From positions 4,836,001 through 4,900,000 of the forward strand of contig NZ_CP118527.1 in the NCBI RefSeq assembly GCF_028885415.1: a DNA stretch of 64,000 nt, written 5' to 3'. The DNA comes from Streptomyces coeruleorubidus (GTDB taxonomy: Bacteria; Actinomycetota; Actinomycetes; Streptomycetales; Streptomycetaceae). A model generated the notes under the pieces. That model was given only the letters and a program-made list of their open reading frames with translations, made no database searches and was not told the origin of the DNA. The translations under genes and the position numbers were made by a program. Positions 34,109-44,592 of this stretch are shown piece by piece. The first letter of the stretch is position 1; each line of letters starts with the position of its first letter.

Positions 34109-35494
34109 CTAACCGATCCCACGCCAACCCTCCGGGTCGACCCCACCCGGCACCGGAGCCCCTTCGTCGTACGGCTGACGCGTGAACACGAACGAACCGA
34201 GGTCCAGATGGCTCACGGATCCGTCCGGCCGCCGTACGGCCTTCAGCAGCTCTCCGGCGTAGTAACCCTCCAGTCCGGTCCAGGTGCCATCGCCGTTCGG
34301 GCGGAACCGCGAGCGTCGCCCGTTGCCGGACAGCGGCTCCAGCGAGGCGAGCCCGTCGGCCGTGAGCCGCAGGGCGAAGGCATACGTGCCCCAATACCAC
34401 TGGCCCGTCAGCTCCAGCATCGACGGGTCGACATCACGCAGTGGCTTCCACGGGGCGGGGATGCGCGGCTCCGCCTCGGCGACGATACACACGAGATCGG
34501 CGGCGACACCGGATACCAGCGGTCCCGAGGTGCAGTTGGCCATCACGACCGCCGCCACGTCGTCCTCCACGCTGATGCTCACATTCGCCAGGAAGCCCGG
34601 CAGGGATCCGCTGTGCCCCACGAGCAGCCGGCCGTGCCGGCGCTGAATCTGCATGCCGAGGCCGTAGGCGTCACCGGACATCACGTCCGCGGCTTCCGCA
34701 GGCGCCGCCGGGGTCCGCATCTCCCGCAGGGACTCGGCGCTCAGCACCCTCTCGTCGCCCTTCACCAGGAAGGCCGCGAACCGGGCCAGGTCTGCCGTGG
34801 TCGACCAGAGTTGACCAGCGGGCGCCATACGACCGAGGTCCTCGGCGGGCTCGGGCAGCAGCACGTCGACCCAGGGGTGCACGGCCCAACCGCCCGCGTG
34901 CGGGGCCTGCGGTCGCACATCGGTCCGATCGAGCCCCAGTGGTTCGAGCACTTCACGCCGTAGTGCCTCCTCCCAGGAGGTCCCCCGCAGCTCCTCCACG
35001 AGCGCGCCCAGCAACGTGTAGCCGGGGTTCGAGTAGTGATGCCGTCGGCCGACGGGGTGCGGGAGAGGCTGCTCACCGAGCACGTCGGACAGTTCCGGCC
35101 GCAGGGACCCGGGTGTGCGCTCCCACCACGGACCGGGCGACTCGGCCGCCAGCCCGCCCGTGTGCGCGAGCAGTTCGGCGATCGTGGCCTCCCCCGCACC
35201 GGTGCCCGGCACGTACTTCTCCAGTGGATCCCCGAGGCCGAGGAGCCCCTCGTCCCGCAGGCGCATCACGAGAACGGCGGTGAAGGTCTTGGTGATCGAG
35301 CCGATGCGGTACTGGACGTGCTCGTCGGGCTCTTGCCCGTCCACCGATGTCCGGGCGCCGTGCCACACCGCCCGCCCGTCCCGGACGACGGCCGCGACCA
35401 GCGACGGGGCCCTCCCCTGCGCCTGAGCCACGGCGATCCGGTGCAGCAGCGCACGACTCGTTGCGGGAAGCAGCTCTTCCTGAGGTGTCGTCAT
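34109..35494 (-). CDS. serine hydrolase, class C beta-lactamase/DD-peptidase family
   Basis: 461 residues with the penicillin-binding fold triad: SITK (SxxK, nucleophile Ser), YSN in HHYSNPGYTLLG, and HSG in LLVGHSGSLPG. The N-terminal ~350 residues are the catalytic domain; the C-terminal ~110 residues (WYWGTYAFALRLTADGL) are a lipocalin-like extension typical of family members. No signal peptide is seen, so a cytoplasmic esterase/peptidase is likely. The start at MTTPQEE gives a normal length. The Tn7-like element inserted 53 bp upstream of the start codon, thus separating it from dnaB and possibly from its own promoter. Confidence 0.87.
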   Translation of the reverse strand: MTTPQEELLPATSRALLHRIAVAQAQGRAPSLVAAVVRDGRAVWHGARTSVDGQEPDEHVQYRIGSITKTFTAVLVMRLRDEGLLGLGDPLEKYVPGTGAGEATIAELLAHTGGLAAESPGPWWERTPGSLRPELSDVLGEQPLPHPVGRRHHYSNPGYTLLGALVEELRGTSWEEALRREVLEPLGLDRTDVRPQAPHAGGWAVHPWVDVLLPEPAEDLGRMAPAGQLWSTTADLARFAAFLVKGDERVLSAESLREMRTPAAPAEAADVMSGDAYGLGMQIQRRHGRLLVGHSGSLPGFLANVSISVEDDVAAVVMANCTSGPLVSGVAADLVCIVAEAEPRIPAPWKPLRDVDPSMLELTGQWYWGTYAFALRLTADGLASLEPLSGNGRRSRFRPNGDGTWTGLEGYYAGELLKAVRRPDGSVSHLDLGSFVFTRQPYDEGAPVPGGVDPEGWRGIG

Positions 35495-35542: not shown

Positions 35543-35547
35543 TCGGC
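35543..35547 (+). repeat. target site duplication, left copy
   Basis: TCGGC, directly abutting the TGT end of the element; identical to the copy at 43100-43104. Confidence 0.92.
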
Positions 35548-35576
35548 TGTAGGTTCTCGCTTTCGGTGTCATATGC
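35548..35576 (+). repeat. left terminal inverted repeat of the Tn7-like element
   Basis: Begins TGTAGGTTCTCGCTTTCGG. Shares TGTAGG, TCTC, TTCGG and TCATA blocks with the right end read inward. A similar block GGTGTCATTTCC recurs at 35642, a possible second TnsB-binding repeat. Confidence 0.9.
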
Positions 35577-35913
35577 CGACGCTGTGACCTGGACGTCCCT
35601 CTTCAGTCTCACGACGTGTCCGCCGGCGGCTGTCTCAGACTGGTGTCATTTCCTCAGACTGTCCAGCAGGCTGCACCGCTGCCCAGGGGCGTCACGAACC
35701 TGCTTCGACACCCATCCGTTCCATCCGCTCGCACACGGTTACTGCTCGCTCGATGCGGCGTCCAACTTCCGCCGGTCGTGGAGCCCTTGGCCTGTGTGTG
35801 AGGAGCCGTTGCCCCGCGGGCCCGCTCGCCTGTTTCCAGGTTCGTTCAAGATTTGTTTATCTCAATCCACGAAGCTGAGCCGGCAACCTCTCGAAGGAAC
35901 CGGAAGGGATCAC
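35577..35913. other. left-end non-coding segment of the element
   Basis: About 340 bp between the terminal repeat and the cargo gene. It probably holds TnsB sites and the promoter of the secreted protein gene (an A/T-rich stretch at 35847-35872). I see no credible gene in it. Confidence 0.5.
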
Positions 35914-36390
35914 ATGCGAGCTGCACGGTTAACCGCAGGATCGACGGCCCTCGTCACCGCTGCGCTTGGGCTGATGGTGGCAACCGCTAGCCCCGCCTCC
36001 GCCGACGGCACGTGGGCCTATTACGGCACCAAGAACCCGATCACTTCCAGTGCCAGCACATGGCGCTGCGGCCCCACCGAATCGGTCAACGCTCTAGACG
36101 ACGTGTATGCGCAGGTCTGCGCGGTCAGGACGGTAGAACGGGACGGCGCACAGGCTGCGGTGATCATACGTAACAACTCAAACAAGATCCAGTCCGCCAA
36201 AGCATCGATGAGCCTGTGGAACGCGGCTGATAACAGCCAGGCCGGTTGGTGGGGTTGCGGCTCCACAGGACTCACGCCCAACGCGTGGACGGTGTGCTTC
36301 GGGAATACTCTCAACCCCAAGTTCGCTACGGTGTACGCGGATGGGGCCGTCAACGGTAGCGATTTCCTCGTACGGTCACCAAATGTCTGA
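35914..36390 (+). CDS. secreted cargo protein of unknown function
   Basis: 158 residues. Signal peptide: MRAARLTAGSTALVTAALGL then MVATASPASADG, with an AxA cleavage site near residue 31. The mature part (~127 residues) has four cysteines (in WRCGP, QVCAV, WGCGS, TVCFG), likely two disulfides, and a Trp/Asn-rich beta-type sequence. I do not recognise a family. The start is supported by GGAAGGG 6 nt upstream. It lies inside the Tn7-like element and runs opposite to the tns operon, so it is cargo. Might be a small extracellular binding or inhibitor protein; this is a guess. Confidence 0.75.
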   Translation: MRAARLTAGSTALVTAALGLMVATASPASADGTWAYYGTKNPITSSASTWRCGPTESVNALDDVYAQVCAVRTVERDGAQAAVIIRNNSNKIQSAKASMSLWNAADNSQAGWWGCGSTGLTPNAWTVCFGNTLNPKFATVYADGAVNGSDFLVRSPNV

Positions 36391-36540
36391 GCCTGAGCTC
36401 GCCAAGGTGGCACGAATCAGGCCCGGTGCCCAACGTCCTGTACGGCCGCCGGGCTGAGCAGATCGTGACGTACGCGGTCACTGCCATCTGACGACGTGGC
36501 CCCTGGCGATACGCTGGGGGCTTTCGTCATAGGGGCGGGG

Positions 36541-36753
36541 ATGAACGGGCCAGACATCGAAGAGGCGCGACGCCTCCTCCGTGAAGCGGACACTGCTGAC
36601 TCGTTCGGCACGTTGGACGCGGACGGCTGGGAGGACCTGGGCCGCCGCCTGGCGAAGGCCCTTCAACTGGATGACGCCCGCGTGGCGGAGAAGATGCCTT
36701 GGGCCCTGTGGGGCTATGCCATCGGGGCCCGCGAGGATCGCGAAGAGGACTGA
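36541..36753 (+). CDS. small acidic hypothetical protein (cargo)
   Basis: About 70 residues: MNGPDIEEARRLLREADTADSFGTLDADGWEDLGRRLAKALQLDD, largely helical and acidic, no signal peptide or membrane segment. The frame is open from GTG 36496, but the ATG at 36541 has GGGGCGGGG immediately upstream. It follows the secreted-protein gene by 150 bp in the same direction and ends 22 bp before the tniQ stop (convergent). No family recognised. Confidence 0.55.
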   Translation: MNGPDIEEARRLLREADTADSFGTLDADGWEDLGRRLAKALQLDDARVAEKMPWALWGYAIGAREDREED

Positions 36754-36775
36754 TGGCGTCCCCGTACCGGGAAGC

Positions 36776-38959
36776 TCACCTCCTCCTCGGGCGGCCCGGC
36801 TGAGACCCGGCAGGGCGGAGTTGAGCGCCGTTCTTCAGCAGTGCGAGACGGACGGTGGCGAGGCTGGTCCCCTCGCGGTCGGCGATGACCTGCAGCGAAA
36901 GGCAGTCTTGTTCGTACCAGGTGCGCCACTGCTCTACGCGGGTGGCGGTGTGCTGGGTGCGGCGAAACCGTGGTGGGCTCCAGTCGACGGGGTGCTGGGA
37001 GAGCAAGTAAGCGACGTGGGCGGTGTTGGTGTCCAGGGTGCGCGCGACGTGTGCGATGGAGAAGTTGCTGCCCGGTACGGCCTGGTGGAGCTGGGCGGCG
37101 CTGATGCTGTCCGGGTCGGGCCCGGGGAGCACGAGATGGAGGAGTGTGCGGGTGGGGAGCCGCGGCGCCCACTGGATGGGCTCGTCGATGCCGTGCTCGT
37201 CGAGGAGTGCGCGTGCGGTGTGATGCAGCAGTTGGGCCTCGGCGGGCAGGATCCGCCAGCAAAAGCGCTGGTACTGCTGGCGTTGAGAGCTGGTGGCGGG
37301 GGCGATGTCCGGGTGTGCGAGGTGCGCGGGCGAGCCGGTTAGTGTCTGGAAGATCCAGCGTTGGGCGTGCGCGGCATGTAGGCCGGGGCACGAGCGCAGT
37401 CGCCGCTGCAGCTTCAGCCAGGTCTGGGGGTCGATGAAACGGGAGCGGGCGGTGAACAGGGCGCGGCGGCGTGCGTAGTCGATGGGGGCGCCGTGCGCAT
37501 CGAGGTGGTCGGCCAGAAGGATCAGTACGCGCAGGACGTCGGCGCAGTCGCTGCGGTGGGTGAGGTCGGCGAGGAGCGTGGACACGTTGTGGCTGCTGAC
37601 AGTAGTGCCGGTCATGCGCGTCGCGGCGCGGATCGAGGTGGTGTTGCCGGCCACCAGGCAGGCGACGGTGAGGAGTTCGTCGGCGCGTTGGGCCACGGGC
37701 TTGCCGCTGGCACGGCGGGGGGACAGGCGCAGGGTCCATTCGGGCCACAGGGCGGTCGGAAGCATGCAGACCCTGGAGTCCTGGTTGGTCGGGGGGCGGG
37801 TGGAGTGGACGGCGGTGCGGTGGCGCAGGCGCGCCACCGGCATCAGCTTGGTCTCCCGGCTGCAGCGCAGGCCGGCTTCGAGTGCGGGCGAGATCGTGCC
37901 GCCGAGGGCGACGACGCTGGCGGGGTGGAGCGGGCGGCCGGTGGCGGCCACGCGGTCGGTCAGCCACTGCACGGCCCGGGCCGCGGTGCGGATGTTCTTG
38001 GCGCGCAGGATGCGGGTCGCTGCCGTGACCGCCACGGCAGCGGCAGCGGCGTCGCCGGGGGCGTAGTAGCTGTGCAGATCGATGCGCCGGATGATCGGCG
38101 CGCGCTGCGGGTCAGCGGGCAGAGGGTTGGCGCGGTAGCGCTCGAGACGGGCCACGACTTCGGGCGGGGCCACCGGGTGCAGGTCGCTGGATGTCGCGTG
38201 GCTGAGGACCAGCGCCCCCAGACTCTTCACATCGCGCAGTAGCACCCTCAAAGGCGCGCCGCCTGGCCCGTACAGCGGCCAGCGCACCATGCGACCTGGG
38301 GCCGCAAGGACGGTGTCGAGGAGGTGTTGGGTCTCTTCCAGGGCCCCGTCGGGAGCGATGGCGGTGACCGGGGTGTCGGCCAGGGGGTGGTGGCAGCGAG
38401 GGGGCCGTGGTCCGCCGCCTGGCGCCGCGCTCGAGCACAGCCCCGGACGGGGCGTTTCTGGCCGGGGGTGAGCGCGGAGGCGGGGGATGCGCCGGCAGGC
38501 CGGACAGCGATCGGCCAGCAGCACATGATGCCGGGCGCAGGCGAAGGACCAGCCCAGGCGCCAGGTCACTGGCCAGCGTCCGCCGTTGTCCGCCAGGCAG
38601 GCGGGGCAGAACCGGGACCCTGCCCGGCCCCACAGCACCTGTCGGTGCACCCGCCGCTGTTCGGGCGAGATCACCACCGCATGCCCGTCGAAGGGTTGAA
38701 GGGTCATCGCCACGAGAACGTCTTCGGTGACACCGGTGACCTCGGCGATGGCGGCCAGCTCGTCGGGGGTGGCCAGGGTGGTCCAGCGCGGCAGCACTGG
38801 GGCGGCCAGTGCTGGGTCGCGGTTCGGGAGGCCGAGTGCGCTGAGCACGTCCATGAATGGGCAGTTCAGGCGGGCGGCGAGGAACTCCAGCCAGGAGTCC
38901 AGGGCCTCGCCGGGATACGGCGCGCACCGGATCGGCAAGGACCGCCGCCCGGTTTTCAC
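36776..38959 (-). CDS. tniQ: TniQ/TnsD-like target-selection protein
   Basis: 727 residues, longer than classical TniQ (300-400) and longer than TnsD of Tn7 (508). The N-terminal TniQ domain begins CAPYPGEALDSWLEFLAARLN; a zinc-binding cluster follows with C118/C121 (FCPACL), C141 and H144/H145 (ACARHH) and C152/C155 (RCPACR). The C-terminal ~400 residues include helix-turn-helix-like segments (e.g. LQVIADREGTSLATVRLALL near the end and SIRAATRMTGTTVSSHNVSTLL). In Tn7, TnsD binds the target (end of glmS) and recruits TnsC. Here the element sits just past dnaB, so dnaB 3' DNA is the likely target. GTG start, overlapping tnsC stop by 4 nt. Confidence 0.9.
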   Translation of the reverse strand: MKTGRRSLPIRCAPYPGEALDSWLEFLAARLNCPFMDVLSALGLPNRDPALAAPVLPRWTTLATPDELAAIAEVTGVTEDVLVAMTLQPFDGHAVVISPEQRRVHRQVLWGRAGSRFCPACLADNGGRWPVTWRLGWSFACARHHVLLADRCPACRRIPRLRAHPRPETPRPGLCSSAAPGGGPRPPRCHHPLADTPVTAIAPDGALEETQHLLDTVLAAPGRMVRWPLYGPGGAPLRVLLRDVKSLGALVLSHATSSDLHPVAPPEVVARLERYRANPLPADPQRAPIIRRIDLHSYYAPGDAAAAAVAVTAATRILRAKNIRTAARAVQWLTDRVAATGRPLHPASVVALGGTISPALEAGLRCSRETKLMPVARLRHRTAVHSTRPPTNQDSRVCMLPTALWPEWTLRLSPRRASGKPVAQRADELLTVACLVAGNTTSIRAATRMTGTTVSSHNVSTLLADLTHRSDCADVLRVLILLADHLDAHGAPIDYARRRALFTARSRFIDPQTWLKLQRRLRSCPGLHAAHAQRWIFQTLTGSPAHLAHPDIAPATSSQRQQYQRFCWRILPAEAQLLHHTARALLDEHGIDEPIQWAPRLPTRTLLHLVLPGPDPDSISAAQLHQAVPGSNFSIAHVARTLDTNTAHVAYLLSQHPVDWSPPRFRRTQHTATRVEQWRTWYEQDCLSLQVIADREGTSLATVRLALLKNGAQLRPAGSQPGRPRRR

Positions 38960-40071
38960 CCGGCGGCCCGCCCACTACGCGGACGGCTGGTGGCCCACCG
39001 TGCATGAAGTGCGTATTCGAGTTCTCTGCGGGCTTGTTCGGCTGCCTCATCGTTCTTGACCTGGTCGAGCAGACCCCGGGTGAGGCGTTCAGTGCCGGTG
39101 CGCTGGGCGCGCTGACAGCCGCGGTTGATCAACGTCATCAGGGAGCCGATGTGCCCGGTTGAGCGGGCAAAGAGATAGTCCGACAAGTCATCGGCGAGCA
39201 TGCCGGGGTAGGTGCCGGCCAGGACGATGCGCTGTTCCAGGGCCAGGATCAGTTGTCGCCAGTGGCGGCGGCCCTGCTCGGTGTCGATGGTGAAGGGCGG
39301 CATGCCCAGGCGGGTGGTGCGCCGGCCGGTCTGGGCCAGGACTGTCTCGCCAGCGGACTCGCCCTCGCTGAACAGGCCCTTGTCCGCGAGTCCCACGCCG
39401 ACCTTGAGGAGGGTGACCGGGAACTCGTTGGCGATCCACTTGAGGTGATTGCTGACCTCGATGCCGCTGGTCTTGCGCCATTTGAGGAAGTGCAGGTCGT
39501 CCAGGATCAGCAGACGGACCTCGCAGGACAACACGCAGTCCAGGGCCTGGAGGCCGAACTGGGCGGCGGTGGAGGTTCGGCGTCCTGGGTGGCCGAAGAA
39601 CTCCAGCATGGCCCGGTTGAGGTCCTTCATTCCGGTATTGCCGGTGAGCCCCACCCGGCACACCGGCCATCGCTCGTGCCCCTGTGCAGTGAACGCGCCG
39701 TATTCGGCGATCTCCCGGCGGTGGAACTCCCGGGCGAAGGCGAGAACGGCGGTGGTCTTGCCCAAGCCTGGGAAGGCGTCGACAGCTACGGCCCCTTTCG
39801 CCTTGTCGCCGTCCTGAAGATTGCTGTCCAGGATGTCCCACAAGTCCCCATGCAGCGCGGCCAGTTGAGGGGTACGGATCGGTCCCAGGTTGGCGTGCCA
39901 CTCCCGCCGGGCACGGTCGTAGGCGGCCCGCGCCCTCTCGTTCAGGGCTCGGAGCATCTTCTGGTTCAGCCGCTCGGGCTGGGTACGGCGCGGCGCGTCG
40001 ACGAAGGTCTTGAAGTCCTCCTTGCGCGACAGCGCCAGGTTGCTCAGCCTGGGCGGGCCAGCCGAACTCAC
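38956..40071 (-). CDS. tnsC: TnsC-like AAA+ ATPase transposition regulator
   Basis: 371 residues. AAA+ ATPase with Walker A FPGLGKTT at 100-107 and Walker B LLILDDLHFL with Asp191/Asp192. The N-terminal segment (PERLNQKMLRALNERARAAYDRARREWH) and C-terminal RSTGHIGSLMTLINRGCQRA match the TniB/TnsC group. In Tn7 systems TnsC forms ATP-dependent filaments on target DNA, is recruited by TniQ/TnsD and activates TnsAB. GTG start overlaps the tnsB stop by 4 nt (GTGA). Confidence 0.93.
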   Translation of the reverse strand: MSSAGPPRLSNLALSRKEDFKTFVDAPRRTQPERLNQKMLRALNERARAAYDRARREWHANLGPIRTPQLAALHGDLWDILDSNLQDGDKAKGAVAVDAFPGLGKTTAVLAFAREFHRREIAEYGAFTAQGHERWPVCRVGLTGNTGMKDLNRAMLEFFGHPGRRTSTAAQFGLQALDCVLSCEVRLLILDDLHFLKWRKTSGIEVSNHLKWIANEFPVTLLKVGVGLADKGLFSEGESAGETVLAQTGRRTTRLGMPPFTIDTEQGRRHWRQLILALEQRIVLAGTYPGMLADDLSDYLFARSTGHIGSLMTLINRGCQRAQRTGTERLTRGLLDQVKNDEAAEQARRELEYALHARWATSRPRSGRAAG

Positions 40072-42194
40072 ACGTCCTCCAGGGCGTCCGCGTAGAAGTC
40101 GTCCTCGGCGGCGAAGCACTCCAGATCGGCTACGTCGTCATCACCCACCGCGGCCACCGGTTCGGGTACGTCTTCTTTCGCCGCCTCGGCCTGACCCAGG
40201 GCTGTGCGTACGGACGTAAGCGAGGCGACCGTCGCCGTACCGGTATCCGGAAGGTCGAGGGCGGCCTGTTCGCGCGAGACCCTCAGCGCCATGCGGCGCT
40301 CGGCGAGCGTGGTCCCCAGCCCGAGATTCCAGCGCTCCAGCAGGTCGGCGACCGCGAGCCGGTCGTCGGGATAGCGGTACTTCGCGGCAGCCAACTTCCG
40401 CGCGAACAGAAGAGCGTCCTCGCTCAGAGGCATGTGGACCGAGGGCGCGTGTTCCCAGGTCAGGGTGTGCCAGACGCGGGTGCCGGGGTCGCGGAAGTAG
40501 ATCCGGGTGACATCATCCGGGGCAACCTGGAACGGCCAGCCGTTCTTCACCTGGCTGTCGTACGGGCTGCGGATGCCCGGCTTGGGCAGGCCGGGACCGT
40601 TGTAGCGGCGGCGGCCGATCTCGACGCCGTAGTGCTGGATCGTGCGCCACTTCGTGGGCAGGAACTCGAAGGCGAGATCCCGGTCGCGGGGGGCCTCGAT
40701 GTAGCCGGCCCTCGCCATGCCGTGCTCGAACATCTGCGCCGGGGACATCCGCAGCCCCGGAACCCCCGGGTCGACCAGACCCGTGTGCGGCCTGCAGTGA
40801 TAGACCACCGCGGTCCACTCCCTGATGATCGACTCCAACTCGTCGAGGAAGAAGAACGCCTCGTCCTCCGGATGCTCGCCGCGGCAGTGGATGTCGGGGC
40901 CCTTGTAGCCGGGCAGCGCCTCCAGCAGTCCCTCTCGCAGGGTGCGGAAGTAGCGTTCCGCCGGTCCCTTGTCCCGGCCGGTGCGCAGCCGGGCGGGCTG
41001 GATCGAGATCGCCATCCGGCGGCAGACGCTGGTCAGATGCCCCGAGACATAGACCTTGCCGTGATCGACCACGAGTGTCTCGGGCACCAGCGGCGGCGAG
41101 GCCAACCCGGGACCGGTCGCTCCTTCGACGTCGACCAGGACCGTGCGCGGGATGCCGTGCTCGGGCCAGACCGCATGGCGCGGCCATTCCCACCCCGCCG
41201 GCCGCGGGCGGAAGCACTGGTAGAGCACCGCGCTGACATCCACGGCCTTGGTCGAGACCGGGGTGAGCCGGAGGCCGGTGATGCATCGGGTGTACCAGTC
41301 CATCGCGATAGTCAGCTCGGCCTGCACCCAGCGCAAGGTGAGCGGGTCGAAGGCGAACACGTCCAGCCGGGTGGTGTCCATCAGCACGTACTCGCCCGGC
41401 CGCGTCGGCCGCAGCTTCCCATACGGCCCCTCCGGCCGGTCGGCGATGTCCCTGTTCCGCTTCGTGCTCAGCCGGAACAGCGGATGCCGCCCCTCCAACT
41501 CGGCCAGGATCCGAAACGCCGTCGCCCGGCTCGGCTGCGGCACCACAGCCGGACCGAACCGGGCGATCACCCGGGCCCGCGTCCGCTCGATCACCAGCGT
41601 CCGCGACGGCTTCGACTGACCGGTGTGCTCGACCATTACCTCCACTGCGGTCTCCGCCCACCGCTCGTCGCCCGAGAGCCACGGTCGTCCCGACCGCCTT
41701 CGCTTCGGCGCCAGCCCAGCCTCACCGTGCTGCCGAAAGTCGGCGACCCACTGCTTCACCGTGCGGACGGACACACCGAGTTCCTCGGCTTTGGCCGCGT
41801 ACTTTGATTCGGCCGGGCCACCGGGCGGGTACTGAGGGCGGGGCTCGCCGGTGCGGGCGAATTCGGCGTGCCCTGAGCGATATCCCGTCAGGACCTCGCG
41901 GACATGCCCCGCCCGCTCCACGACCTTGTGCCGTTCGTCCTCGCCCAGCTGGTCCAGCACTACCGAGGCGATCTCCTCGACCTCGTCGGGTGATGGCCCG
42001 GCCTGCTCGGGGATGATCTCCGCGCGGTCGGAGAACAGCAGCTCTTTCAGTGCCAGTCGGAGGACCCGCCCATGCGCGTCCTCAAGGACCACCTCGTTGC
42101 CCGCCGTCGTCGCGGCCAGTTCGACCACCTCGACGCTCTCCCCGTCGTAACGGAAACGCGTGCCAACCCCGACCCGGGCCCTTGCGCCGCTCAT
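40068..42194 (-). CDS. tnsB: TnsB-like DDE transposase
   Basis: 708 residues of the Mu/TnsB transposase family. An N-terminal ~60-residue beta barrel-like part, then an HTH domain (KYAAKAEELGVSVRTVKQWVADFRQHGEAGL), then the RNase H fold with D273 (LMDTTRLD), D377 (VVDHGK) and E413 (PAERYF) as the catalytic DDE triad, then the Mu-C type beta domain (YGVEIGRRRYN). TnsB joins the 3' ends to target DNA, and with TnsA performs cut-and-paste. Start chosen at MSGARARV because it overlaps the tnsA stop (ATGA) and GAGGAGGGC precedes it. Confidence 0.95.
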   Translation of the reverse strand: MSGARARVGVGTRFRYDGESVEVVELAATTAGNEVVLEDAHGRVLRLALKELLFSDRAEIIPEQAGPSPDEVEEIASVVLDQLGEDERHKVVERAGHVREVLTGYRSGHAEFARTGEPRPQYPPGGPAESKYAAKAEELGVSVRTVKQWVADFRQHGEAGLAPKRRRSGRPWLSGDERWAETAVEVMVEHTGQSKPSRTLVIERTRARVIARFGPAVVPQPSRATAFRILAELEGRHPLFRLSTKRNRDIADRPEGPYGKLRPTRPGEYVLMDTTRLDVFAFDPLTLRWVQAELTIAMDWYTRCITGLRLTPVSTKAVDVSAVLYQCFRPRPAGWEWPRHAVWPEHGIPRTVLVDVEGATGPGLASPPLVPETLVVDHGKVYVSGHLTSVCRRMAISIQPARLRTGRDKGPAERYFRTLREGLLEALPGYKGPDIHCRGEHPEDEAFFFLDELESIIREWTAVVYHCRPHTGLVDPGVPGLRMSPAQMFEHGMARAGYIEAPRDRDLAFEFLPTKWRTIQHYGVEIGRRRYNGPGLPKPGIRSPYDSQVKNGWPFQVAPDDVTRIYFRDPGTRVWHTLTWEHAPSVHMPLSEDALLFARKLAAAKYRYPDDRLAVADLLERWNLGLGTTLAERRMALRVSREQAALDLPDTGTATVASLTSVRTALGQAEAAKEDVPEPVAAVGDDDVADLECFAAEDDFYADALEDV

Positions 42195-42910
42195 GCTGCC
42201 CTCCTCAATACCGCTGTGGGCCGCAGCGGGTGGGAAAGGTCGGTGCGCAGGCCATGCGTCCACAGCAGGTGGAAAGTCGCGGCCCGTACAAGAGATTCGG
42301 GCCTGTCAGGCAGCCGCCGTGCCGCCTGCCTGAGCGGGATGCCGTCGAGATCGACCTGGCGCAGCTCGTCCAAGAGCTCCGGGGCAAACAACCACCTGCG
42401 GCGATAGCCAGCCAGGAAGCGGATGTTTTCTAATTCCGTCTTGGGCGATTCGCTCCACACCTCGTACCGCCACCCGCGCGACTCCACCGCGCGTCGGGTC
42501 CACTCGAAGGTGGAGGCCACCACCGGCTCAGCCAGCGATCGCCGCGGCTTGACGTCCACCACCACGGGGCTCTGTTCAGTGACAAGGAGGTAGTCCGGGA
42601 TGTGCTTGCGGACTTGCCCGTCCACCACGGCCTTCAGCAAGAAGGGCTGAGCAGTGATGCCGTGCACGAAGGGATCGAAGTCTGCGGACAATAGCCGCGC
42701 GAGCTCCAGTCGCGACTCGTAGATCACATGACCACCGGTCGTCGCCGACCAGTAGGTCCCCGAGTAGTGCCTCTGCCCCTTGTACCAGCGAAACGTCCGC
42801 CATGGGGCGGCCGAGGCCAGCAGGCGAACCGGAGCCGCAGTCCACGGCCGGTCCTCGACAACTTCACCAGCGTACTGACGAACACTTACCGTCATAGCGG
42901 AATCGTCCAT
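42191..42910 (-). CDS. tnsA: TnsA-like 5'-end-cleaving endonuclease
   Basis: 239 residues. The restriction-enzyme-like active site is E65 in VIYESRLELARL, D106 in HIPDYLLV and K121 in VVVDVKPR, with D119 adjacent. It is the TnsA pattern (E..D..xVKP). The C-terminal ~80 residues (LLDELRQVDLDGIPLRQAARRL) form a helical region like TnsA_C. The protein cuts the 5' strands at the transposon ends, which makes the element cut-and-paste rather than replicative. It is the first gene of the operon; GGGGAG lies 6 nt before the ATG. Confidence 0.92.
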   Translation of the reverse strand: MDDSAMTVSVRQYAGEVVEDRPWTAAPVRLLASAAPWRTFRWYKGQRHYSGTYWSATTGGHVIYESRLELARLLSADFDPFVHGITAQPFLLKAVVDGQVRKHIPDYLLVTEQSPVVVDVKPRRSLAEPVVASTFEWTRRAVESRGWRYEVWSESPKTELENIRFLAGYRRRWLFAPELLDELRQVDLDGIPLRQAARRLPDRPESLVRAATFHLLWTHGLRTDLSHPLRPTAVLRRAA

Positions 42911-43070
42911 GGCACGCTCCCCACCCGGGTGATGGCCCTTATTGCCACGATGCTCGTCCCTGGTGCAGAGATGAATACGAGCCGGAGACCGTCACCCGAA
43001 AGAGTGGATGCGCTGAACAGCGAGTCTCAACGTCGCTTCATATGTGCTGCTGATATGCAGTCGCGCCCGA
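42911..43070. other. right-end non-coding segment of the element
   Basis: 160 bp between the right terminal repeat and tnsA. It should hold the tns promoter and TnsB sites. A block GCTTCATATG at 43035-43044 resembles the TTCATAA block of the right terminal repeat and TCATATG of the left, in plus orientation; a weak candidate for an extra TnsB site. Confidence 0.5.
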
Positions 43071-43099
43071 GATTATGAAGCCGAACTTGAGATCCTACA
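43071..43099 (-). repeat. right terminal inverted repeat of the Tn7-like element
   Basis: On the minus strand begins TGTAGGATCTCAAGTTCGG; pairs with the left terminus at 21 of 29 positions. Confidence 0.9.
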
Positions 43100-43104
43100 T
43101 CGGC
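43100..43104 (+). repeat. target site duplication, right copy
   Basis: TCGGC, directly abutting the ACA end of the element and 6 bp from the dnaB stop codon. Confidence 0.92.
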
Positions 43105-43110
43105 ACCGCC

Positions 43111-44592
43111 TCAGGTCTGCGCCATGTCCACGAACCGCGAGTAGTGACCCTGGAAGGCGACCGTGATCGTCGCCGTCGGGCCGTTTCGGTGCTTGGCCAC
43201 GATCAGGTCGGCCTCGCCCGCGCGCGGCGACTCCTTCTCGTAGGCGTCCTCACGGTGGAGCAGGATGACCATGTCGGCGTCCTGCTCGATGGAACCGGAC
43301 TCACGCAGGTCGGAGACCATCGGCTTCTTGTCCGTGCGCTGCTCGGGACCACGGTTCAGCTGGGAGAGCGCGATGACCGGGATCTCCAGCTCCTTGGCCA
43401 GCAGCTTGAGGTTACGGGACATGTCCGAGACCTCCTGCTGACGGCTCTCGGACCGCTTGGAACCACCGGACTGCATCAGCTGGAGGTAGTCGATGACCAC
43501 CAGCCGGAGGTCGTTGCGCTGCTTGAGGCGGCGGCACTTGGCACGGATCTCCATCATCGACAGGTTCGGGGAGTCGTCGATGTAGAGCGGGGCCGCCGAG
43601 ACGTCCGGCATCCGCCGGGCCAGGCGCGTCCAGTCCTCGTCCGTCATCGTGCCGGACCGCATGTGATGCAGAGCGACCCGGGCCTCGGCGGACAGCAGAC
43701 GCATCGCGATCTCGTTGCGCCCCATTTCGAGCGAGAAGATCACGCTCGGCAGGTTGTTCTTGATCGAGGCGGCCCGCGCGAAGTCCAGCGCGAGCGTCGA
43801 CTTACCCATGGCGGGACGCGCGGCGATGACGATCATCTGGCCCGGGTGCAGCCCGTTGGTGAGCGAGTCGAAGTCCGTGAACCCCGTGGGCACACCGGTC
43901 ATCTCGCCGCTGCGCGAGCCGATCGCCTCGATCTCGTCGAGCGCGCCCTCCATGATGTCGCCGAGCGGCAGATAGTCCTCGCTGGTGCGCTGCTCGGTGA
44001 CCGCGTAGACCTCCGCCTGGGCGCGGTTGACGATCTCGTCGACGTCGTCGTCGGCCGCGTATCCCATCTGCGTGATGCGCGTACCCGCCTCGACCAGGCG
44101 GCGCAGTACGGCCCGCTCGTGGACGATCTCCGCGTAGTAGGCGGCATTGGCGGCCGTGGGCACCGTCTGGACGAGGGTGTGCAGATACGAGGCCCCGCCG
44201 ACCTTGTTGATCTCGCCGCGCTTGGTGAGTTCGGCGGCGATAGTGATGGGGTCGGCCGGCTCGCCCTTGGCGTAGACATCGAGGACGGCCTGGTAGATCG
44301 TCTCGTGGGCGGGCTTGTAGAAGTCGTGGCCCTTGAGGATCTCGACGACGTCGGCGATGGCGTCCTTGGAGAGCAGCATGCCGCCGAGGACGGACTGCTC
44401 TGCCTCGATGTCCTGCGGTGGTACTCGCTCGAACGCCGGGCCGGCGTCGCCGTCCCATGCCCCGCTGTCCCGGCCGCGCTCGTGCTGCTCGTCGCGGCCC
44501 CGGGCTCCGTCGCCACGTCGGCGGGAGGCGGGCAGACGATCACTGGGACCGCTGTCGGCCCACGGGTCGTCCAAGGGCTCGGAAATGCTCAC
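43111..44592 (-). CDS. dnaB: replicative DNA helicase DnaB
   Basis: 493 residues, a complete DnaB. N-terminal domain: PPQDIEAEQSVLGGMLLSKDAIADVVEILKGHDFY. RecA-like motor: PTGFTDFDSLTNGLHPGQMIVIAARPAMGKSTLAL (Walker A), VVIDYLQLM (Walker B) and QLNRGPEQRTDKKPMVSDLRESGSIEQDADMV. The first ~50 residues are a charged Arg/Asp/Gly-rich extension. DnaB unwinds DNA at the replication fork as a hexamer. It has a GTG start with GGAGGAGGT upstream. The gene end is the insertion point of the Tn7-like element. Confidence 0.97.
   Translation of the reverse strand: MSISEPLDDPWADSGPSDRLPASRRRGDGARGRDEQHERGRDSGAWDGDAGPAFERVPPQDIEAEQSVLGGMLLSKDAIADVVEILKGHDFYKPAHETIYQAVLDVYAKGEPADPITIAAELTKRGEINKVGGASYLHTLVQTVPTAANAAYYAEIVHERAVLRRLVEAGTRITQMGYAADDDVDEIVNRAQAEVYAVTEQRTSEDYLPLGDIMEGALDEIEAIGSRSGEMTGVPTGFTDFDSLTNGLHPGQMIVIAARPAMGKSTLALDFARAASIKNNLPSVIFSLEMGRNEIAMRLLSAEARVALHHMRSGTMTDEDWTRLARRMPDVSAAPLYIDDSPNLSMMEIRAKCRRLKQRNDLRLVVIDYLQLMQSGGSKRSESRQQEVSDMSRNLKLLAKELEIPVIALSQLNRGPEQRTDKKPMVSDLRESGSIEQDADMVILLHREDAYEKESPRAGEADLIVAKHRNGPTATITVAFQGHYSRFVDMAQT

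Follow-up and report, generated by a model that had tools for sequence, protein, structure and literature searches.

We have analyzed a stretch of 64 kb (hereafter the window), bases 4836001-4900000 of the single-contig 9.41-Mb genome of Streptomyces coeruleorubidus, which contains a 7,552-bp element at 35548-43099, between the gene of a beta-lactamase-family hydrolase and dnaB. It is a real Tn7-like element, set apart by a recurrent attachment site at dnaB and by an indication of a further class of targets, and we consider it probable that it is a transposon homing to the 3' end of this gene. The features of the region are the following (positions in the window).

34109..35494, minus strand: flanking beta-lactamase-family hydrolase (PF00144), outside the element; adjoins dnaB directly in genome G123
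35543..35547, no strand: left copy of the target-site duplication, TCGGC, 5 bp, read from the sequence; the empty site in G123 has CCGGC here
35548..35576, plus strand: left transposon end TGTAGGTTCTCGCTTTCGGTGTCATATGC, matching the right end at 21/29 positions; similar left ends are found in relatives with exact duplications
35555..35574, plus strand: TnsB-type end repeat TCTCNNNNTCGGNNTCATAT, 0 mismatches; partly circular, the consensus being drawn from these ends
35914..36390, plus strand: cargo gene, 158 amino acids (aa), product probably secreted (signal peptide by visual inspection) and matching no family
36541..36756, plus strand: possible cargo gene, ~70 aa; open reading frame (ORF) only
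36776..38959, minus strand: tniQ, 727 aa, TnsD-like target selector (PF06527, E 1.7e-20)
38956..40071, minus strand: tnsC, AAA+ ATPase (PF13401 and PF05621, AAA/TniB; weak match to VchTnsC)
40068..42194, minus strand: tnsB, 708 aa, DDE transposase with D273/D377/E413 (matches to solved TnsB chains; residue positions)
42191..42910, minus strand: tnsA, 239 aa, endonuclease with E69/D106/K121 (NF033179, PF08722; residue positions)
42969..42988, minus strand: TnsB-type end repeat, 2 mismatches (repeat search)
43053..43072, minus strand: TnsB-type end repeat, 3 mismatches (repeat search; 3-mismatch matches also occur at three places outside the element)
43071..43099, minus strand: right transposon end ...TGAGATCCTACA (sequence, match to the left end, ends of relatives)
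43073..43092, minus strand: TnsB-type end repeat, 1 mismatch (repeat search)
43100..43104, no strand: right copy of the target-site duplication, TCGGC, 5 bp, read from the sequence
43111..44592, minus strand: dnaB, replicative helicase (TIGR00665); its 3' end is the putative attachment site, given the recurrent insertion alongside
43125..43160, minus strand: putative binding region of a TnsD-type protein, assuming the spacing known from Tn7 (+23 to +58) and placed from Tn7 geometry and the constant spacing; overlaps the conserved CATGTCNACGAANCGNGAGTAGTG block

The termini TGTAGG...CCTACA, their 21 matches in 29 positions and the TCGGC duplication on each side, all put forward in the original prediction, were reproduced with the same coordinates. 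When ~2.1 kb and ~1.4 kb around the two borders were scanned against each other, one alignment (in four overlapping frames) reached 21/29, and the frame 35548/43099 alone has matching flanking 5-mers. This single alignment and the presence of the ends in relatives rule out a chance inverted repeat. The 20-bp repeat TCTCNNNNTCGGNNTCATAT was found at <=2 mismatches in three places of the window, every one of them in the element ends. As candidate TnsB-binding sites, such repeats would be clear in the right end, with one clear and one weak copy in the left end, the latter a possible second copy near 35634. Furthermore, related copies do share these ends, as the original prediction required: 17 related elements have canonical ends and exact 5-bp duplications, making 18 with that of the window, from 52 tries on 50 loci (11 of 26, 4 of 23 and, on plasmids, 2 of 2 tries, and the window itself; two loci, L076 and L077, had two tries each). 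L157, in which the 5-mer matches and the left end is non-canonical, was left out of this count.

The tnsA end of the element is found 11 bp downstream of the dnaB stop codon. Removing the element and one TCGGC leaves the predicted spacer of 59 bp (counted by eye) between dnaB and the hydrolase, the same length as in the element-free G123. The comparison with the empty site of this genome (L035, with a dnaB end 98% identical) gives the identical boundary, and the duplicated 5-mer there differs by one base from the one in the window.

The full set of tnsA, tnsB, tnsC and tniQ was found open, with coordinates as predicted and identities backed by family matches. TnsA matches at E 2e-76 an actinobacterial TnsA family of NCBI (NF033179, "TnsA_like_Actin") and also PF08722. 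The triad D273/D377/E413 proposed for TnsB is correct for the 708-aa start. From the E65/D106/K121 proposed for TnsA, D106 and K121 stand; in place of E65, it is more probably E69, which by computed position lies in SRLE, that provides the glutamate of the motif. The tnsC ORF reaches 40119 and its start was picked at the 4-bp overlap with tnsB. A sequence search of solved structures gave no significant match for TniQ and none for TnsA. Apart from ~1.2 kb with two small plausible ORFs, the element is taken up by tnsABC and tniQ. The 158-aa cargo protein found no match when compared with phages. No TnsE gene is apparent (no dedicated TnsE search was made). When the ORFs of 12 bounded elements were clustered, those other than tnsA, tnsB, tnsC and tniQ formed clusters of at most 3 members, which led us to reject a fifth conserved selector gene, although the basic ORF caller used here overlooked some genes.

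The association with dnaB is found well beyond this genome. Among the 29 non-window TnsA loci inspected, dnaB adjoins the tnsA end in 12 (in L012 the sequence stops at the element end, with the neighbor outside it), and one further locus adjoins a DnaB-like gene that is 40% identical overall, with the last codons alike. The pattern of a right end near the dnaB stop matches 47 of 392 genomes, and the same pattern read backwards 19 of 392. Thirty loci from these 47 genomes were read, the other 17 genomes being outside the count, and 26 were truly at dnaB. The gap from the element end to the dnaB stop is 7-11 bp in 25 of these 26 loci and 19 bp in the remaining one, and a CATGTC block within the final codons of dnaB lies 19-23 bp from the end in 25/26. 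The chance expectation of CCTACA at that position is ~0.002 per dnaB, and 21/26 dnaB-side ends fit the end consensus also past their six terminal bases. Outside the genus, 4 of 22 TnsA loci, belonging to three actinomycete families, have their end 19-23 bp from the same dnaB block. The tnsA end faces dnaB in 12/12 cases of the TnsA-based survey, in which flanks of 1.5 kb would miss inverted copies, and the tnsA side does so in all five end-selected dnaB loci that keep window-like tns genes; left and right ends are not reliably told apart by consensus alone (the window's own right end scored left-like). The original description of an intact-looking Tn7-like transposon holds. It mentioned dnaB as a neighbor and missed it as the target: elements of this kind insert repeatedly at the dnaB 3' end. 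The gene looks like a safe landing site for the family. Related TnsAB elements are found elsewhere too, including plasmids, which would fit an insertion beside dnaB by chance or by plain intergenic preference, but the near-constant spacing to the dnaB tail, in the genus and in three other families, makes this extremely improbable.

In addition, in two genomes with an element end (L165 and L166), dnaB itself is seemingly split by an insert of ~1 kb (an intein or other), as judged from tblastn pieces.

Several traits of Tn7-like transposons are found in the window element: TnsA, TnsB and TnsC with a TniQ-domain protein, imperfect inverted TGT...ACA ends with a 5-bp duplication, and, as indicated by the recurrence and the spacing, site-specific insertion beside a conserved gene. 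With Tn7 itself (TnsABCD, attTn7 at glmS) it shares TnsA, TnsB, TnsC, a TniQ-domain selector, the 5-bp duplication, the TGT...ACA ends and a tnsA end that adjoins an essential gene at its 3' end, Tn7 being inserted with its tnsA end toward the target gene. It differs from Tn7 in being at dnaB and not at glmS, and in having one TniQ/TnsD-type gene, with a TniQ of 727 aa, and no apparent TnsE. In Tn7, insertion takes place ~20 bp past the glmS stop codon, and the TnsD site spans +23 to +58, counted from the center of the duplication and within the glmS end (PMC2918618); the conserved dnaB block starts ~20 bp from the insertion. This geometry would be the TnsD-glmS arrangement of Tn7 with another gene.

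Gene set, ends, duplication, empty site, dnaB recurrence and near-constant spacing are direct observations; that TniQ recognizes dnaB and that the element is still able to move are inferences. By analogy with Tn7, the TnsD-like TniQ, composed of a TniQ core and C-terminal helix-turn-helix domains, would bind the conserved last codons of dnaB. The bound TniQ would recruit TnsC, which would in turn bring TnsA and TnsB, and these would excise the element and insert it 11 bp past the stop with a 5-bp duplication and the tnsA end toward dnaB, leaving the essential gene untouched. It is the predicted fold of TniQ that suggests both the binding to the attachment site and the recruitment of TnsC.

A motif of 32 bp, located upstream of a DUF317 (SPDY) gene (L078:17388-17520; L181-L205), forms a second recurrent site. 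The motif occurs in 24 of 246 genomes at <=3 mismatches, and none was found at this threshold in the genome of the window; read backwards, it gave no match among those listed. Of 25 places, 6 have a right end at a distance of 8-9 bp from the motif. The distance is 11 bp in L078, which appears to be a tandem insertion with the right end of an older element at its left border. A stretch similar to the motif is present on two large Streptomyces plasmids. Elements were also found at the 3' ends of gap (L092, L093), of an OmpA-family gene (L079) and of a GH15-like gene (L082), names given by eye from the translations, which suggests further attachment sites beside these genes. No motif shared in the same register by the dnaB tail and the DUF317-linked site was seen (by eye only).

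Four of the 18 bounded elements are short (L153, 615 bp; L210, 1240 bp; L206, 1671 bp; L158, 3266 bp) and sited at dnaB or at the DUF317-linked site, with canonical ends and exact duplications. With no window-like tns gene detected in any of the four, these resemble non-autonomous derivatives, probably mobilized in trans.

Several observations weigh against a transposon directed to dnaB by its own TniQ and still moving. Four of the 30 pattern loci read were not at dnaB, and 5/26 dnaB-side ends agree with the end consensus in their six terminal bases only. Foldseek gave no match for TniQ at E<=0.001, the best one being a TnsD at E 0.0028. The TniQ of the window falls in a well-supported clade whose other placed members, L078 (72%) and L086 (67%), are at the DUF317-linked site; L080 and L148 were not placeable, so that two members have a placed site besides the window. 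The TniQs of dnaB-sited elements elsewhere are ~28-35% identical to it over most of the length. The TniQ searches covered sets of 150, 80, 80 and 120 genomes, with overlaps. A TniQ 97.4% identical to a dnaB-sited one occurs at a plasmid site other than dnaB, so that the lineage of a TniQ and its target are not in simple correspondence. Actually, the idea of one TniQ clade for one target failed: the TniQs from dnaB sites are spread over several lineages, among which other targets are interspersed (23 rows). Finally, no further close copy of the element was found in the genome of the window.

This single close copy and the many relatives that are broken or reduced to ends would be expected of an element that is real and a dead relic, no longer transposing. 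We regard this as rather unlikely, given its four open and overlapping tns genes, conserved catalytic residues, matching ends and exact duplication.

The place of the window's TniQ near L078 and L086 could also mean that this protein recognizes the DUF317-associated site or plasmid DNA, and that the insertion at dnaB was directed by the TniQ of another element in the same cell, or that tniQ was replaced after insertion. The absence of the DUF317-linked motif from the genome would fit, and short elements without detected tns genes at both sites make mobilization in trans plausible. On the other hand, a mosaic TniQ was discarded, since segment identities show no foreign block and no stretch is foreign to its clade, and the clade has two members only with a placed site, beside at least 29 further, unplaced near-full-length relatives (65-80% identity). 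Furthermore, the plasmid element L258 of S. scopuliridis, with the exact duplication GCGGC, is 97.4% (TniQ), 97.3% (TnsB), 98.9% (TnsC) and 94.2% (TnsA) identical to the dnaB-sited L072. Because these two sets are nearly identical, one TniQ seems compatible with insertion at dnaB as well as on a plasmid. Taking both sides together, we judge the reading of a dnaB insertion directed by another TniQ, or of a replaced tniQ, to be unlikely.

Homing to dnaB by the element's own TniQ could form part of a wider habit. Within this lineage of actinobacteria, a single TniQ might lead a two-target life, with a safe home in the chromosome at the 3' end of dnaB on one side and plasmids or plasmid-like DNA (including the DUF317-linked motif) on the other, with neither TnsE nor CRISPR (clustered regularly interspaced short palindromic repeats) involved and with the short tns-less elements sharing both homes and moved in trans. 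We propose this tentatively, as a possibility somewhat short of even. Such a life would resemble the two pathways of Tn7, but TnsE is not visible in these elements. To judge from the sequences, TniQ is favored as the putative selector of the target, since the TnsB proteins of L070 (at dnaB) and L082 are close to each other, but their targets differ and so, strongly, do their TniQs (898-903 versus 596 aa).

Tn7-like elements are common, not rare, in the genus, because TnsA relatives, close and distant, were found in 169 of 295 genomes (E<=1e-3). When contigs of named genomes were scanned with proteins as the guide, one weak locus was obtained. The window's chromosome carries elsewhere a second, distant tnsA-tnsB-tnsC set, 29-35% identical (L002, G000:C1:4545850-4549863), and near 9.35 Mb this genome has a distant TnsB match containing one stop. 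L067 has a second tnsA and a partial tniQ downstream, a sign of tandem insertion.

The Tn5053/Tn402 family has tni genes without TnsA, and the window element, having TnsA, lies outside it. A CRISPR-guided element is ruled out by gene content, no Cas effector genes being apparent (no dedicated Cas search was made). The CRISPR-associated transposons with TniQ-targeted parE, glmS and tRNA sites resemble it in TniQ/TnsD-directed homing beside conserved genes, but the window element has no room for Cas effector genes, and dnaB is not among their sites in the accessible part of a 2024 review, which names glmS, comM, parE and tRNA genes as attachment sites (PMC11406308). Alike in host phylum and gene set is an Actinobacteria-dominated clade of Tn7-like transposons described as having no experimentally characterized member (Benler et al. 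2021, PMC8649781), to which the window TnsB may or may not belong; in the text of that paper dnaB has 0 occurrences. Tn7706 of Rhodococcus also has actinobacterial tnsA, tnsB, tniB (a tnsC-type gene) and tniQ, but it is 19 kb long and multicopy, on plasmids and horizontally acquired islands, and the available part of its description makes no mention of a dnaB site (PMC12915292). No report of dnaB as a Tn7-type attachment site was found in the literature searched, which consisted mostly of titles and the beginnings of abstracts and excluded subscription papers and supplements.

The dnaB 3' end gives a named attachment site to Tn7-like elements that have been described in print as uncharacterized in Actinobacteria. 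With a transposase homing to dnaB, large DNA could be inserted in Streptomyces and other actinomycetes at a single site that is neutral and conserved. The nearly identical TniQ of the plasmid copy raises the question of whether one TnsD-type protein can support two target classes, and in this family a single selector may do so.
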